Shown: piece after piece, positions 7,418 through 21,763 of the stretch
How the letters are laid out: each line of letters begins with the position of its first letter
Numbering within the stretch: position 1 is the first letter of the stretch
Assembly (NCBI GenBank): GCA_019694435.1
Contig: JAIBBZ010000002.1
Coordinates: forward strand, 124,001 to 188,000
Direction: 5' to 3'
Source: Pirellulales bacterium
GTDB taxonomy: Bacteria > Planctomycetota > Planctomycetia > Pirellulales > JAEUIK01
Length of the DNA stretch: 64,000 nt
Position numbers and translations under genes: made by a program
Notes under the pieces: generated by a model
Told to the model about the DNA's origin: nothing
The model's input: the letters and a program-made list of their open reading frames with translations, nothing else
The model's database searches: none

Positions 7418-8671
7418 CTATTGCTGCTTGTAATCGCCGACGTTGGGCAGCCGCTCGTGCACGTCGGGGCCGAAATAGCGCAGACCCACCAGCGGCTCGT
7501 CGCCGTCGTTAGCGATCTCGACGCCGCAGCGGGCCGCCTCGCTGGTGATGAACACCTCGTCGGCCGTTTCCTCGCCGAAGCGGATCATCGCCGGCGTCTG
7601 CAAGGCCAACGGGCCCATGCGGCCCTTGCCTTGCACGGTGATCCAGCCGCTGGCACCCGGATCGCGGATCGTGCACTTGGCGCCTGGCTCGAGCGTCAAT
7701 TCTTTCGCGCTGAACAGTTGCGCGCCGTCAATGCGGCCATACACGATCCAGCGATCGACGCAGCCCGGCGCGCCGGCCGTCGCATCGACGATCGGTTCGA
7801 GGTAGTTGTGATCCTTGAAGTGCGTGTCGACGTTCTTTTCCCAGTCCAACTGGCCGATGATGAAGTCCAGGTCGCGGTGCTTTTCCGGCGGCACGTCCTT
7901 GACCAGCAGCGACCAGGGCACGTAGCGCCCTTCGACCAGCGATTGGAACATGCCGAACACGTCCGAGCCCCATTGCGGTTCGTAGGTGCACAGACTGCCC
8001 GGGGCATGCAGCACGCCGGGCGGAATCAGCCAGCCCGTACCGCGCTTCAGGCGATAGGCCTTCGACAGGTCGAGAATGCCGTTGTCGCCCTGGTCCCAGT
8101 TTTCCAGGCAGCGCCGCACGTCGGCCTTGGTCGTGCCCGGCTCGAGGCCCATGAACGTGTAGGCGTAGTTGTTGTCGACGTTGTTCAACTGCGGCGGGAA
8201 ATAATAGCTCTCGGGCTTGCCTTGCTGGCCGGTCAGCTTGGCGTGCTCGAAACCCTGGTGCATGTGGTGCGGAATCGGCCCCATGTTGTCGAAGAATTTC
8301 GAGTACACCGGCCAGCGGTCGTACTTCTTGAACATGGCGTCGCCGATCAGCCGCGCGCCGGCCTCGGCCACGGCGTCGCGCAGCGTGAACCGCTGGCCCT
8401 CGAACGCCACGTAGCTGAGTCCCTCGTCGGGCACCCGGCCCTCGTTGGCCGCTTCGGTGGTGCTGGCGAACCAGCGCTCGTCGATGCCGCCGCGGTTCGC
8501 GCCGTACGCATACCAGTCGCGCGGATCGAGCTTGATGCGCTTGCCGGGGTGCAGAAAGCTGCGCGGCACCCAGGTAGGCGTCAGACGCAACAGCCCCCGG
8601 CCGGCGTCGAGCGCGCGGTCCAAGAGCTTGCCGATATTGTCGGTCGAGGCGATTTTCGACTGGCGGATCAT
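7418..8671 (-). CDS. Cupin-fold, mannose-6-phosphate-isomerase-like protein
   Basis: 417 residues. It resembles type I phosphomannose isomerases in carrying a His-x-His pair (IPHHMHQGFEH, His136/His138), a glutamate (KPESYYF, Glu154) and a distal histidine in a cupin strand (IPPGVLHAPG, His222) that together would make the metal site. The C-terminal ~130 residues form a second beta-rich domain. Probable role: aldose-ketose isomerisation of a sugar or sugar phosphate. No close named relative is recognised, and the protein may be specific to the pathway encoded by the neighbouring Gfo/Idh and TIM-barrel genes. The 182-base gap to the divergent DUF4432 gene could hold a shared control region. 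Confidence 0.7.
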   Translation of the reverse strand: MIRQSKIASTDNIGKLLDRALDAGRGLLRLTPTWVPRSFLHPGKRIKLDPRDWYAYGANRGGIDERWFASTTEAANEGRVPDEGLSYVAFEGQRFTLRDAVAEAGARLIGDAMFKKYDRWPVYSKFFDNMGPIPHHMHQGFEHAKLTGQQGKPESYYFPPQLNNVDNNYAYTFMGLEPGTTKADVRRCLENWDQGDNGILDLSKAYRLKRGTGWLIPPGVLHAPGSLCTYEPQWGSDVFGMFQSLVEGRYVPWSLLVKDVPPEKHRDLDFIIGQLDWEKNVDTHFKDHNYLEPIVDATAGAPGCVDRWIVYGRIDGAQLFSAKELTLEPGAKCTIRDPGASGWITVQGKGRMGPLALQTPAMIRFGEETADEVFITSEAARCGVEIANDGDEPLVGLRYFGPDVHERLPNVGDYKQQ

Positions 8672-8853
8672 GGGTCGGTCTGCAACTCGCGAAAGGGGCG
8701 ACGAAGGCCGGTTTTTGGCGTGCCCGAGCGATTGTTGTAGTAGAGCGCCGGCGCGCCGGCAAGCACGGCCGAAGGGCTCTGCTGGCAGGCTGCATGCGCG
8801 CGGCTTACATTGGGCTCCCTTGGCTCATTCGACTGTCCGAAGGGGACCCTGCC

Positions 8854-17508: not shown

Positions 17509-17544
17509 TCGGACTTCTTGGTTTCTCGACAAAGGACTCTTGTG

Positions 17545-18570
17545 ATGCACATCGAAGGACGCACAAACGTCACCAGCCAGCGGTTCGGCTCGGGCAGTAT
17601 CGACGGCCTGGGCCGCGAGCTGGGGCGGTTTGTCGTGGCGACCATGGAGTTGCCCTGGAACCTGGTGCGCGAGCGGCTCGGGGCGCTGCCGGAGGCCGTC
17701 GTCTGCGTCGAATCGCTCGAATCTGACGTGGTCGAGCGGCAACTGGCCGCGATGCCGCCGTGCGACACGGTGCTGGCCGTCGGCGGGGGGCAAGCAGTCG
17801 ACTTGGGCAAGTACCTCGCCTGGCGGCGCGGCTGCCGATTGGTCACGGTACCGACGGTGATCAGCGTCGACGCGTTCGTCACTCCGAAAGCGGCGCTGCG
17901 GCGCAATCACATTGTCGAGTACGTCGGCGACAGCAGCCCGGACCCGTTGGTGATTGACTACGACCTGCTACGTACGGCGCCGGCCGAACTCAATATTGCC
18001 GGCGCCGGTGACGTACTCTCGTGCCATACGGCCACGTTCGACTGGGAGCTGGCCCAGCGCGCCGGCCGCAGCACCTATCCCTTCAGCGCGGCCGACGTGG
18101 CGGCCGGCCGCCGGCTCGTGCAAGACATGGACGACCAGGCCGACGAGATTCGCCGTGTCACCGATGCGGGCCTGCAGGCCATTGTTGACGCCTACCTGCG
18201 GATCAATACGATCTGTCTGCCGGCCGATCACTACCGAGTCGAAGAAGGCTCGGAGCATTTCGTGTTTTACGAGCTCGAACAGCGCCTGGGCCGGGGTTTC
18301 ATCCACGGCCACATCGTGGGCCTGGGCATCTACCTGATGAGCCGGCTGCAGGAGAACGACCACGAGCGGATCGTCGACTTGATGCACCGCCTGGACCTGC
18401 GCTTTCAGCCGGCCGACATGGAGATCCCGCGCGCGGCGCTGGCCGAGTCGCTGTTGAATGTCCGCGCGTTCACCGAGCGGCACCACCACTGGTACTCGGT
18501 GATCCAGGAACGTGAAATCACGCCGGCCTGGATCGAAGACGCGCTCGCCGGCCTGCGGTTTACCTGTTAG
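17545..18570 (+). CDS. sn-Glycerol-1-phosphate dehydrogenase-like enzyme
   Basis: 341 residues, iron-containing-alcohol-dehydrogenase/dehydroquinate-synthase fold, AraM/EgsA branch. NAD(P) loop VGGGQAVDLGKYLA at 79-92, then VPTVISVDAF, GAGDVLSCHTATFDW (Asp156), EEGSEHF (His238) and FIHGHIVGLG (His254/His256) giving the metal site. Family members reduce dihydroxyacetone phosphate to sn-glycerol-1-phosphate, the archaeal lipid enantiomer also made by some bacteria. AAAGGA precedes ATG 17545. Pairing with an APC permease is not typical of lipid synthesis, so the substrate could differ. Confidence 0.8.
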   Translation: MHIEGRTNVTSQRFGSGSIDGLGRELGRFVVATMELPWNLVRERLGALPEAVVCVESLESDVVERQLAAMPPCDTVLAVGGGQAVDLGKYLAWRRGCRLVTVPTVISVDAFVTPKAALRRNHIVEYVGDSSPDPLVIDYDLLRTAPAELNIAGAGDVLSCHTATFDWELAQRAGRSTYPFSAADVAAGRRLVQDMDDQADEIRRVTDAGLQAIVDAYLRINTICLPADHYRVEEGSEHFVFYELEQRLGRGFIHGHIVGLGIYLMSRLQENDHERIVDLMHRLDLRFQPADMEIPRAALAESLLNVRAFTERHHHWYSVIQEREITPAWIEDALAGLRFTC

Positions 18571-18624: not shown

Positions 18625-19206
18625 TCACGGCGCGATCACGCCGGCGCGTTTCCAAGGCCGGATCACCATGCGTACCCGACCGAGGATCTGGTCGGCCGGC
18701 ACGTCGCCGTTGAAACGACTGTCGTCCGAGTCCTTCGAGTCGTCGCCCAGCAGGTAATAGCCGCGCCGGCAGGTGTACGCCTGGTCGTAAATGATGTTTC
18801 CGTAGGGGAAGTATTGGATGTTGGCCAGGAAATCGGGCTTCGCAATCGGGCGGCCGTTAATGACGATGCGCCGGTCTTTCAGGATTTGAATCGTCTCGCC
18901 CGGCAGCGCGACGACACGCTTGGCGATCACGTCGCCGGCTGCCTGTCGCACGGCGACAATCTCCCAGCGCCGCGGGCGGCGCACCTGGTAGGTCAGCTTT
19001 TCGACCAAGACGGTATCGCCGGTTTCCCAACTCGAGCCCTGCAGCGTCGGGTGCATCGACGGCGACGTCATCCGGACGGTGAACAGGCACCAGGGCGCAA
19101 GGAGGGTTGCCATGCCGTAGATCGCGAATCCATTGCGACCGATTACCCACAATCTCCGCAGCCAGGATCGAGGCGGGCAACTCGCCTTGTGCGCAGGCTC
19201 GCTCAT
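18625..19206 (-). CDS. lepB: Signal peptidase I
   Basis: 193 residues. One N-terminal membrane helix (about 20-44), then box B MTSPSMHPTL with nucleophile Ser50, box D VIAKRVVALPGE with general base Lys96, and box E YLLGDDSKDSDDSR (GDD instead of the commoner GDN). It removes signal peptides from exported proteins at the outer face of the cytoplasmic membrane. The ATG lies 2 bases after the stop of the small membrane protein, so the two are translationally coupled and share an operon with the radical SAM enzyme. Confidence 0.93.
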   Translation of the reverse strand: MSEPAHKASCPPRSWLRRLWVIGRNGFAIYGMATLLAPWCLFTVRMTSPSMHPTLQGSSWETGDTVLVEKLTYQVRRPRRWEIVAVRQAAGDVIAKRVVALPGETIQILKDRRIVINGRPIAKPDFLANIQYFPYGNIIYDQAYTCRRGYYLLGDDSKDSDDSRFNGDVPADQILGRVRMVIRPWKRAGVIAP

Positions 19207-19208
19207 GC

Positions 19209-19553
19209 TCACGGGTCCGTGTGTTCCGGCGCACTGGCAAGGCCCGCATGAGCTGCAGCCGCGTCCGGCAAGGCATTCGTCTCGGCGAGTTGCTGTTCGA
19301 TGAGTTGCAGGCGCTTGAGCTGCTCGAGCCGGGCGGACCGCGTGGCCCCCCTGCAAGCGCGCACGTTGAACAGCCCCGAGCAAGTGATCAACACGGCGAT
19401 GGCCGTCGTCGCGCCCAGCAGTTGGGCACACGTGAAGGTCCACGGTTGCTTCGGTTTCGGCTCTGGCACCGGCGGCCCGCCGGGGTTGGGAAGACGGACG
19501 TCATCGAACCAGGAATCATCGGGCAAATCGTGATCGTGAAAGGAATCAGTCAT
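19209..19553 (-). CDS. Small single-pass membrane protein
   Basis: 114 residues, not recognised. An acidic N-terminus (DSFHDHDLPDDSWFDD), a proline-rich linker, one membrane helix around 42-64 (FTCAQLLGATTAIAVLITC) and a charged helical tail with coiled-coil character (LEQLKRLQLIEQQLAE). The helix resembles the recurring planctomycete pattern F(S/T)xxxLLxxTTxxAVL. Cysteines at the helix ends and in VRACRG. It sits between a radical SAM enzyme and signal peptidase I; it might be a substrate or an anchor for either, which is inference. Confidence 0.75.
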   Translation of the reverse strand: MTDSFHDHDLPDDSWFDDVRLPNPGGPPVPEPKPKQPWTFTCAQLLGATTAIAVLITCSGLFNVRACRGATRSARLEQLKRLQLIEQQLAETNALPDAAAAHAGLASAPEHTDP

Positions 19554-19577
19554 CTCCAGTTCCTCGGCAGGCGTTCG

Positions 19578-20654
19578 TTACGGCTTCAGAGTTGCGGAAT
19601 TCAGCGGAGGGCGAGCACGGTGCTTGCGCAGCGCTTCGCGATGACACAAGCGTTCCCAGAGACACAGCAGCCCGTCGGGGCGCGTGACGTCGCCGGTGCG
19701 GATGAAATTGCTGCAGCGGCAAAAGGTCGAACAACGGGACTCGATAGCGCAGGCATCACACGCGGGCAAGGTCTTGGGCGGCCAGGTGCGCAGCGACAAG
19801 AAGTGATCGACGTCGGACACCTTGCCCGGAATCAGCAGCGGGTGACCGGGCGGATCCTCGCCGACGATGCGTTCGCAGGGATATATGCGGCCGGAGGGAG
19901 CCACGGCGACCTGCCCTTCGCCAAACGAGCAGCGCGCCGTCGCGGTGCCCCGGATGCTCAGCAGCGCGGCCGCTTTTTCGTCCAGGCAGCTCACGTGGAA
20001 GTCCGGCTGCAATTCGGCCCACAGCTCGGCCGCTTCGGCGACCGCGGTCTGCAACCGCGAGCCGTCGGCAAAGGACCAGTCGACCCACAAGTCGAGCGAG
20101 GGCGTAACCTGCCGGACACCGAGGTCGTAAAGATGCCGGAGCCCCTTGGCAAATGCAGTGACCGTTGTCGGCCGCACGACCATGACGACGTTCAAGTCTT
20201 TGCCCGCGGCGAACAACCGGCCCAGCGTGGCCTCGACTCGCGCACAGGTCGCGTCCCGCAGGGCGATCCGGTGACGATCGTGATTCTCGGGCACGCCATC
20301 GTGGCTGATGCTGAGGGCCACGGCCGGATCGAGCATGACCTGCCAGGCCTGTTCCGTATCGATGGTGCCGTTCGTGGTCAGATCGAACCGGACGCTGCAC
20401 GAGCACGCCTCGGCCCGTTGCCGCGCATAGCGCATCCACTGCAGAATGCGGTCTGCCTCCAAGAGGGGCTCGCCGCCGAAGAAGCCCAAGTCGAGCGTGC
20501 CTTGGGGTTGCAGACTGGCCAGGGCGCGATCGATCGCCTGTTCGCCCAGGTCGACGGGCATCACCCGCCCCAGTTTCTCGCCCGTGTAGCAATACGTGCA
20601 CCGCAGGTTGCACGCATGCGTGACGACCAGTGTGAGCTCGAAGTGCTCGAACAC
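19578..20654 (-). CDS. Radical SAM/SPASM domain enzyme
   Basis: 358 residues. The [4Fe-4S]-SAM cluster motif is CNLRCTYC (Cys15, Cys19, Cys22), followed by FFGGEP at 58-63. The C-terminal SPASM region has Cys242, Cys260, Cys299, Cys302, Cys308, Cys312, Cys314 and Cys331, enough for two auxiliary clusters. Family members modify peptides or proteins (RiPP maturases, anaerobic sulfatase-maturating enzymes). GTG start at 20654 with GGGAGG seven bases upstream. It heads a three-gene operon with the small membrane protein (gap 24 bases) and lepB. No sulfatase or obvious precursor peptide is adjacent. Confidence 0.88.
   Translation of the reverse strand: MFEHFELTLVVTHACNLRCTYCYTGEKLGRVMPVDLGEQAIDRALASLQPQGTLDLGFFGGEPLLEADRILQWMRYARQRAEACSCSVRFDLTTNGTIDTEQAWQVMLDPAVALSISHDGVPENHDRHRIALRDATCARVEATLGRLFAAGKDLNVVMVVRPTTVTAFAKGLRHLYDLGVRQVTPSLDLWVDWSFADGSRLQTAVAEAAELWAELQPDFHVSCLDEKAAALLSIRGTATARCSFGEGQVAVAPSGRIYPCERIVGEDPPGHPLLIPGKVSDVDHFLSLRTWPPKTLPACDACAIESRCSTFCRCSNFIRTGDVTRPDGLLCLWERLCHREALRKHRARPPLNSATLKP

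Positions 20655-21361: not shown

Positions 21362-21763
<402 letters not shown>

Follow-up and report, generated by a model that had tools for sequence, protein, structure and literature searches.

A conserved cassette of a radical SAM/SPASM enzyme, a small membrane protein and a signal peptidase I in Planctomycetes and some neighbors, possibly maturing a membrane-anchored peptide

The window, which is the whole 64,000-nucleotide stretch of DNA analyzed here, carries three open reading frames that follow each other on the minus strand and encode a radical SAM/SPASM enzyme of 358 residues (19578-20654), a small single-helix membrane protein of 114 residues (19209-19553), and a signal peptidase I (SPase I) of 193 residues (18625-19206). 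The gaps between them are 24 and 2 bases, as the original prediction had it. The SPase starts with an ATG; an alternative form with a GTG start, reaching position 19443, overlaps the small gene, and this longer form is not required. Upstream lies a divergent gene for a P-II regulator (21425-21763), and downstream a convergent gene (17518-18570, plus strand), so that neither flanking gene is part of the trio unit. The convergent gene looks like a bacterial relative of NAD(P)-dependent glycerol-1-phosphate dehydrogenase, which takes part in the synthesis of archaeal-type lipids (128.7 bits against NF002022, below the cut-off of 413). A promoter scan of the window trio found none, and terminator-like sites are no commoner there than by chance. 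Pfam, NCBIfam, and a survey of the neighbors also agree with the earlier statement that no sulfatase or known RiPP precursor stands beside the window trio.

The first cassette gene matches PF04055 at 55.9 bits, above the cut-off, and its product contains the radical SAM cluster motif CxxxCxxC (C15, C19, and C22; 20589-20612, minus strand). The SPASM region, from auxiliary-cluster cysteine C242 to C331 (19662-19931, minus strand), shows the complete pattern C-x9-15-G-x4-C-gap-C-x2-C-x5-C-x3-C-gap-C, in the form C242-x12-G-x4-C260 ... C299-x2-C302-x5-C308-x3-C312 ... C331. All of these cysteines are invariant, both in the eight-member trio alignment and in 20 aligned enzymes, and the SPASM ones are invariant in alignments A5 and A8, which contain an additional invariant cysteine, C314. 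In a Foldseek ranking of the AF2 model of the enzyme (pLDDT 88.4), CteB comes first (TM 0.80-0.82), followed by anSME, the anaerobic sulfatase maturase (0.71-0.77), ChlB, TigE, SkfB, and SuiB. The sequence profiles agree with this order, the best PDB sequence match being CteB (5wgg, 5why; 8e-46). The alignment starts only at residue 99 of CteB (5wgg), which means that the window enzyme does not have the N-terminal domain of CteB.

The small membrane protein has no Pfam or NCBIfam match. It has a homologue at each trio locus, and a profile built without it recovers it at 1.3e-4. Its head is acidic and Pro-rich (net charge -5 over 44 residues) and includes the segment LPNPGGPPVPEPKPK (19449-19493, minus strand), a possible leader or recognition element. 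Similar head segments of the type [LI]P[DN]PxGPP are found at L095, L114, L116, and L215, and our guess is that they serve as a recognition element for an enzyme devoid of a CteB-type N-terminal domain. The transmembrane helix covers residues 45-62 (19368-19421, minus strand), which form the top Kyte-Doolittle 18-mer (mean 2.0) and are helical in the AF2 model; this low-confidence model (mean pLDDT 68.9), used for helix content only, predicts a helix from residue 38 to 94. The acidic Pro-rich head and the single helix described in the original prediction are thus both found, whereas its coiled-coil tail can be retained only as a helical tail.

The alignment of 22 sequences reveals a common motif, [C/T/S]-x-G-A-T-[RK]-[SA]-x-[KR]-L-x-W-x-x-R, located 5-12 residues past the single hydrophobic segment. 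The first position is always Cys, Thr, or Ser (22/22), the Gly and the Ala are each present in 21 of the 22 sequences, the basic residue is mostly Arg or Lys, and Ser, Ala, or Gly follows. In the window protein, this segment, C67-R-G-A-T-R-S-A-R-L ... R81 (19311-19355, minus strand), reads CRGATRSARLEQLKR and is the proposed core and cleavage region. A Gln stands there where most members have Trp; since four others also lack this Trp, it is not an essential site throughout. After the motif, a helical segment W/F-x-x-R-x-x-x-I is conserved. A formylglycine-like C-x-P-x-R motif was considered for the small protein and rejected, because the spacing is off by one and Thr occupies that position in many members. 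The small gene is under purifying selection, with dN/dS values of 0.12-0.41 in the related species pairs where they could be computed, versus 0.08-0.17 for the enzymes, and it usually evolves faster than the radical SAM and SPase genes.

The third gene product belongs to signal peptidase I, with 87.3 bits for TIGR02227 (cut-off 47) and 91.6 bits for PF10502, and has one N-terminal helix. Its catalytic Ser50 (19057-19059, minus strand) and Lys96 (18919-18921, minus strand) are both conserved in 21/21 homologues. Two other assignments were rejected, a conjugative TraF protease (34.2 bits, cut-off 100.25) and a Ni-SOD maturation protease (35.5 bits, cut-off 63.25). The window genome contains four SPase-like matches including the trio SPase, the other three being in open frames of about 480-630 residues. 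Two to five matches, some genes matching twice, are found in each of the seven genomes tested, which makes the trio SPase an extra one. In a tree, the trio SPases group together (support 87/94) and separately from five long SPases (430-590 residues) of the same genomes; the outgroup is limited to these five divergent sequences and includes one very long branch. In 21 of the 22 small proteins, the -3/-1 rule of signal peptidases is satisfied at [CTS]-x-G↓A (the arrow marks the cut), at the distance from the hydrophobic core, 5-12 residues, that is expected of a signal-peptide c-region. The rule does not single out one site, since a second position, after TRS, fits equally (21/22).

Profile searches covered 392 genomes of the phylum, 297 of the class, 198 of a second class, and 29 of a third class, plus a contig collection in which a single-protein query matched nothing and an alignment query gave the matches. 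Together they yield 20 intact trio loci including the window, in G000, G036, G391, G471, G482, G492, G606, G261, G376, G273, G074, G100, G691, G789, G806, and G822 and in four MAGs. The 19 loci other than the window thus come from 15 whole genomes and these four MAGs, which by label are L113 and L115 (Phycisphaerae), L114, also numbered G634 (Pirellulales), and L116 (Verrucomicrobia). The gene order is radical SAM, small protein, SPase at all loci except G074, where the SPase precedes the small gene. At seven loci, the enzyme gene shares 4 or 8 bases with the small gene; at most others, the gap between them is within 50 bases. Among 57 relatives, the window enzyme has one strong relative, in G036 (49% identity), whose locus carries the identical arrangement; G001 contributes a fragment. 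Two of the class-wide searches return both groups, and in these the scores against alignment A5 are 438 bits or more for trio enzymes and no higher than 291 for the others. The trio is therefore a real conserved cassette, common to Planctomycetes and some neighbors, and the neighborhood extends well past close strains, to several classes of the phylum and one MAG labeled Verrucomicrobia. It is patchy within genera, being present for example in G036 and G492 and not found in G379, G385, and G431, which points to loss or transfer. An accidental adjacency or a lineage-specific operon with no functional linkage would fit this patchiness and is already refuted by synteny, as the same trio recurs in distant classes with near-perfect co-occurrence; we give it hardly any weight.

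A 21st locus, in G001, has a gutted enzyme gene and still contains two small genes and the SPase. The first ~50 codons of its enzyme gene are fused in frame to the small-protein gene (L032, 8813-9334, minus strand), a second small paralogue follows at 8426-8767, and then the SPase at about 7831-8316. The internal deletion of the enzyme could be a real one or an assembly fault.

In the search of the 392 phylum genomes, where only the best first-look candidates of each genome were scored, the small-protein profile matches at E<1e-12 in eight genomes, which are exactly the eight that hold the trio enzyme clade. Since the profile was built from trio members, the informative part of this result is the absence from the other genomes, two of which give weak matches (E about 7e-4). 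A six-frame scan finds the trio-type SPase and small protein together in 21/21 trio-type loci and in 0/94 related-enzyme loci, for which the flanks covered only a few kilobases. A clade of 24 members in the enzyme tree (SH-aLRT 100) comprises the 20 trio enzymes and four others, which count among the 94; these lack a nearby SPase, and their partners are other membrane proteins or were not found. This indicates that the SPase tracks the GATRS-type small protein and not the enzyme clade as such. At L241 in G739, the gene of a trio-clade enzyme precedes those of two membrane proteins that contain TTQPASRP-type repeats and a repeated helical domain; no SPase accompanies them.

Tandem small proteins occur twice, with five copies in G806 and two in G001. 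At the G806 locus (L236), the five lie between the radical SAM and SPase genes and have differing Pro/Thr/Ser/Gln-rich tails (TTQPAS). One of them has the motif GAQRSTRLQW, and the tails of the other four are unrelated to it. In these divergent tails and in the partner protein of G737, a Gly is found exactly nine residues before the Trp for 6/6 testable Trp residues. None of 20000 shuffles matched this spacing, even with a free choice of the best among 12 distances (p<5e-5); the four G806 tails are paralogues, otherwise strongly diverged, and are not fully independent in this test. The same spacing is found in 15 of the 21 GATRS-type proteins. This spacing-constrained, repeated motif and the tandem copies are the best argument for the small protein as the substrate. 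The suggestion of the original prediction that it could be the substrate is likewise strengthened by the post-helix motif, the strict co-occurrence, and the faster evolution of the small gene compared to the enzymes.

Genetic linkage, tandem small-protein paralogues, and a linked protease are seen here; a RiPP system in the broad sense would be a precursor peptide linked to a modifying enzyme, its leader being removed by a protease. The reading that we moderately favor is a RiPP-like cassette that matures a membrane-anchored peptide, in which the enzyme would modify the post-helix segment and the dedicated SPase I would cleave. We infer from these comparisons what the substrate is, where and how it is modified, the topology, the cleavage, the order of the steps, and the biological role. 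The small protein would insert into the membrane through its single helix, leaving the Pro-rich head on the cytoplasmic side. The radical SAM/SPASM enzyme, devoid of an N-terminal leader-binding domain, would recognize it and install a modification in the segment [C/T/S]-x-G-A-T-R-S-x-[K/R]-L-x-W that directly follows the helix. The post-helix segment would then be exported, and SPase I would cut at the end of the helix, most likely at [C/T/S]-x-G↓A, which would release a modified helical peptide about 30-60 residues long. Several observations count against this RiPP-like reading: a second place fits the -3/-1 rule equally, the charges around the helix do not point to one topology, the Trp is missing from the window protein and four others, G001 retains small genes and SPase when its enzyme gene is mostly lost, and no SPase adjoins four enzymes of the clade.

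The main rival, a scaffold role also named in the original prediction, casts the small protein as a scaffold or adaptor whose helix and helical tail tether the radical SAM enzyme to the membrane beside the SPase, the true substrates being other exported proteins encoded elsewhere. The strict one-to-one presence of the small gene in most genomes, the conserved helical segment after its motif, and the G001 locus without a full enzyme gene all fit a scaffold, as does the window genome, in which a profile search for further GATRS proteins finds no second homologue at E<0.001. Nevertheless, diversified tandem copies such as those of G806 and G001 are typical of precursors, the tails differ in both length and sequence outside the motif, and the neighborhoods examined revealed no further conserved partner, which together make a scaffold rather unlikely.

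Less probable still is an inverted topology, in which the head would face outward and the GATRS tail would be cytoplasmic and modified there, while the SPase would act on something else. The flanking charges are mixed, with more Lys and Arg on the C-terminal than on the N-terminal side in 8/22 proteins, equal numbers in 10/22, and fewer in 4/22; the short acidic N-terminal tails and basic post-helix segment fit the positive-inside rule for an inverted protein in about a third of the members. Against this, it is precisely the GATRS-type protein that the SPase accompanies, [CTS]-x-G sits where the c-region of a signal peptide would be, and the sister type-B proteins of G806 have basic residues ahead of the helix (MSRKVLL), implying that the head is inside.

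Planctomycetes carry many sulfatases, and a sulfatase-maturation system with incidental neighbors might be suspected, given that anSME is the second-best fold match (4k38, TM 0.77, shared over the catalytic and SPASM parts) and that two sulfatases adjoin the G100 trio. We consider it most improbable, since CteB is nearer in both sequence and fold, clear sulfatases occur near only one of the 21 loci (plus one further partial match), the enzyme overlaps or abuts the small gene at 15 or more loci, and the motif of the small protein, unlike that of anSME substrates, is not C/S-x-P/A-x-R. By family score, the enzyme does not cluster with the anaerobic sulfatase maturases, reaching 56.1 bits for TIGR03942 against a cut-off of 349, lower than its score for the PapB-type maturases given below.

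More distant relatives of the enzyme have other partners. At L100, L103, L108, and L110, the gene ahead of the enzyme encodes a Pro-rich protein that has a GYP-type leader, a segment of membrane, Tat-like, or lipobox-like type, and a G-[DEKN]-x-V repeat recurring every ~12-20 residues; these proteins look like exported multi-core substrates. The L100 partner also shows a weak match to TIGR04117 around its membrane segment (E 0.038, with a bit score below the cut-off of 50). At L104 and L118, the gene after a related radical SAM enzyme encodes a larger protein that combines a KPVxRYxxxxYP...DPxP leader with a membrane segment and a conserved domain without NCBIfam match. In G009, a protein dense in spaced cysteines (L033, 6351-7409, minus strand) lies near a distant relative and resembles the CXXX-repeat target systems. 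The trio SPase was not seen beside the distant relatives. The exported-looking Pro-rich neighbors suggest that action on exported proteins may be general in the enzyme group. Returning to the RiPP-like reading, we propose only tentatively, as a broader extension, that the trio of Planctomycetes and neighbors represents a new class of radical SAM-modified, membrane-borne peptides released by a dedicated SPase I, with a core formed by the Gly and the residue (often Trp) nine positions later directly after the helix, and that the partners of the larger enzyme group are all apparently membrane-anchored or exported Pro-rich proteins.

If the RiPP-like reading holds, a SPASM enzyme with a helix-bearing substrate and an SPase I of its own would link protein export to radical peptide chemistry, and the orphan SPases and small membrane proteins found in Planctomycetes would gain functions. 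The reading predicts a modified segment just after the helix and a cut at [CTS]-x-G↓A; with only three genes, many orthologues including close species pairs, and such sharp predictions, it is directly testable. The usual exits of modified RiPP peptides are transporters or routes that use other proteases. A review on the proteases that remove RiPP leaders makes no mention of signal peptidases (PMC10885120). The original prediction is supported, in that neither of the two outcomes it gave as refuting, a neighborhood confined to close strains or clustering of the enzyme with anaerobic sulfatase maturases, was observed. Our literature search found no description of a unit of radical SAM enzyme, membrane peptide, and SPase I in open-licence PMC papers, a scope that makes this weak evidence.

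The window enzyme scores below the curated threshold of every named SPASM family tested, and the small protein has no PapB or CXXX motif. The best NCBIfam match of the enzyme is the PapB-type maturase NF047865 (156.6 bits, below the cut-off of 340). PapB-type maturases form thioether crosslinks from Cys S to Asp or Glu. Their cognate peptides carry Cys-x3-Asp/Glu motifs (PMC9413430). A PapB thioether substrate was rejected for the small proteins, whose alignment shows no conserved CX3D/E and has [CTS]xGATRSx[KR]LxW instead. The CXXX-repeat maturase TIGR04115 is matched at 79.7 bits (cut-off 350), and the window small protein, unlike TIGR04117 targets, has no CXXX repeat and no TIGR04117 match. 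TigE (8vpo), a related SPASM enzyme (8e-21) that modifies a T-I-G motif, is a lead only: the small proteins have T/C-x-G-A at a fixed place, but the residue before the Gly varies (R, V, A, S, H, M, I), which means that TigE-like chemistry is not implied. Like general SPase I (TIGR02227), the trio SPase has a Ser/Lys dyad and a single N-terminal helix, whereas it is compact (about 190-220 residues) and locked to one small protein, unlike the other SPase matches of the same genomes (frames of about 400-650 residues). The CteB/SCIFF maturase TIGR03974 (96.9 bits, below the cut-off of 425) likewise combines radical SAM and SPASM domains; in contrast to both ranthipeptide maturases, PapB and CteB, the partner of the trio enzyme is a membrane protein with a dedicated SPase.
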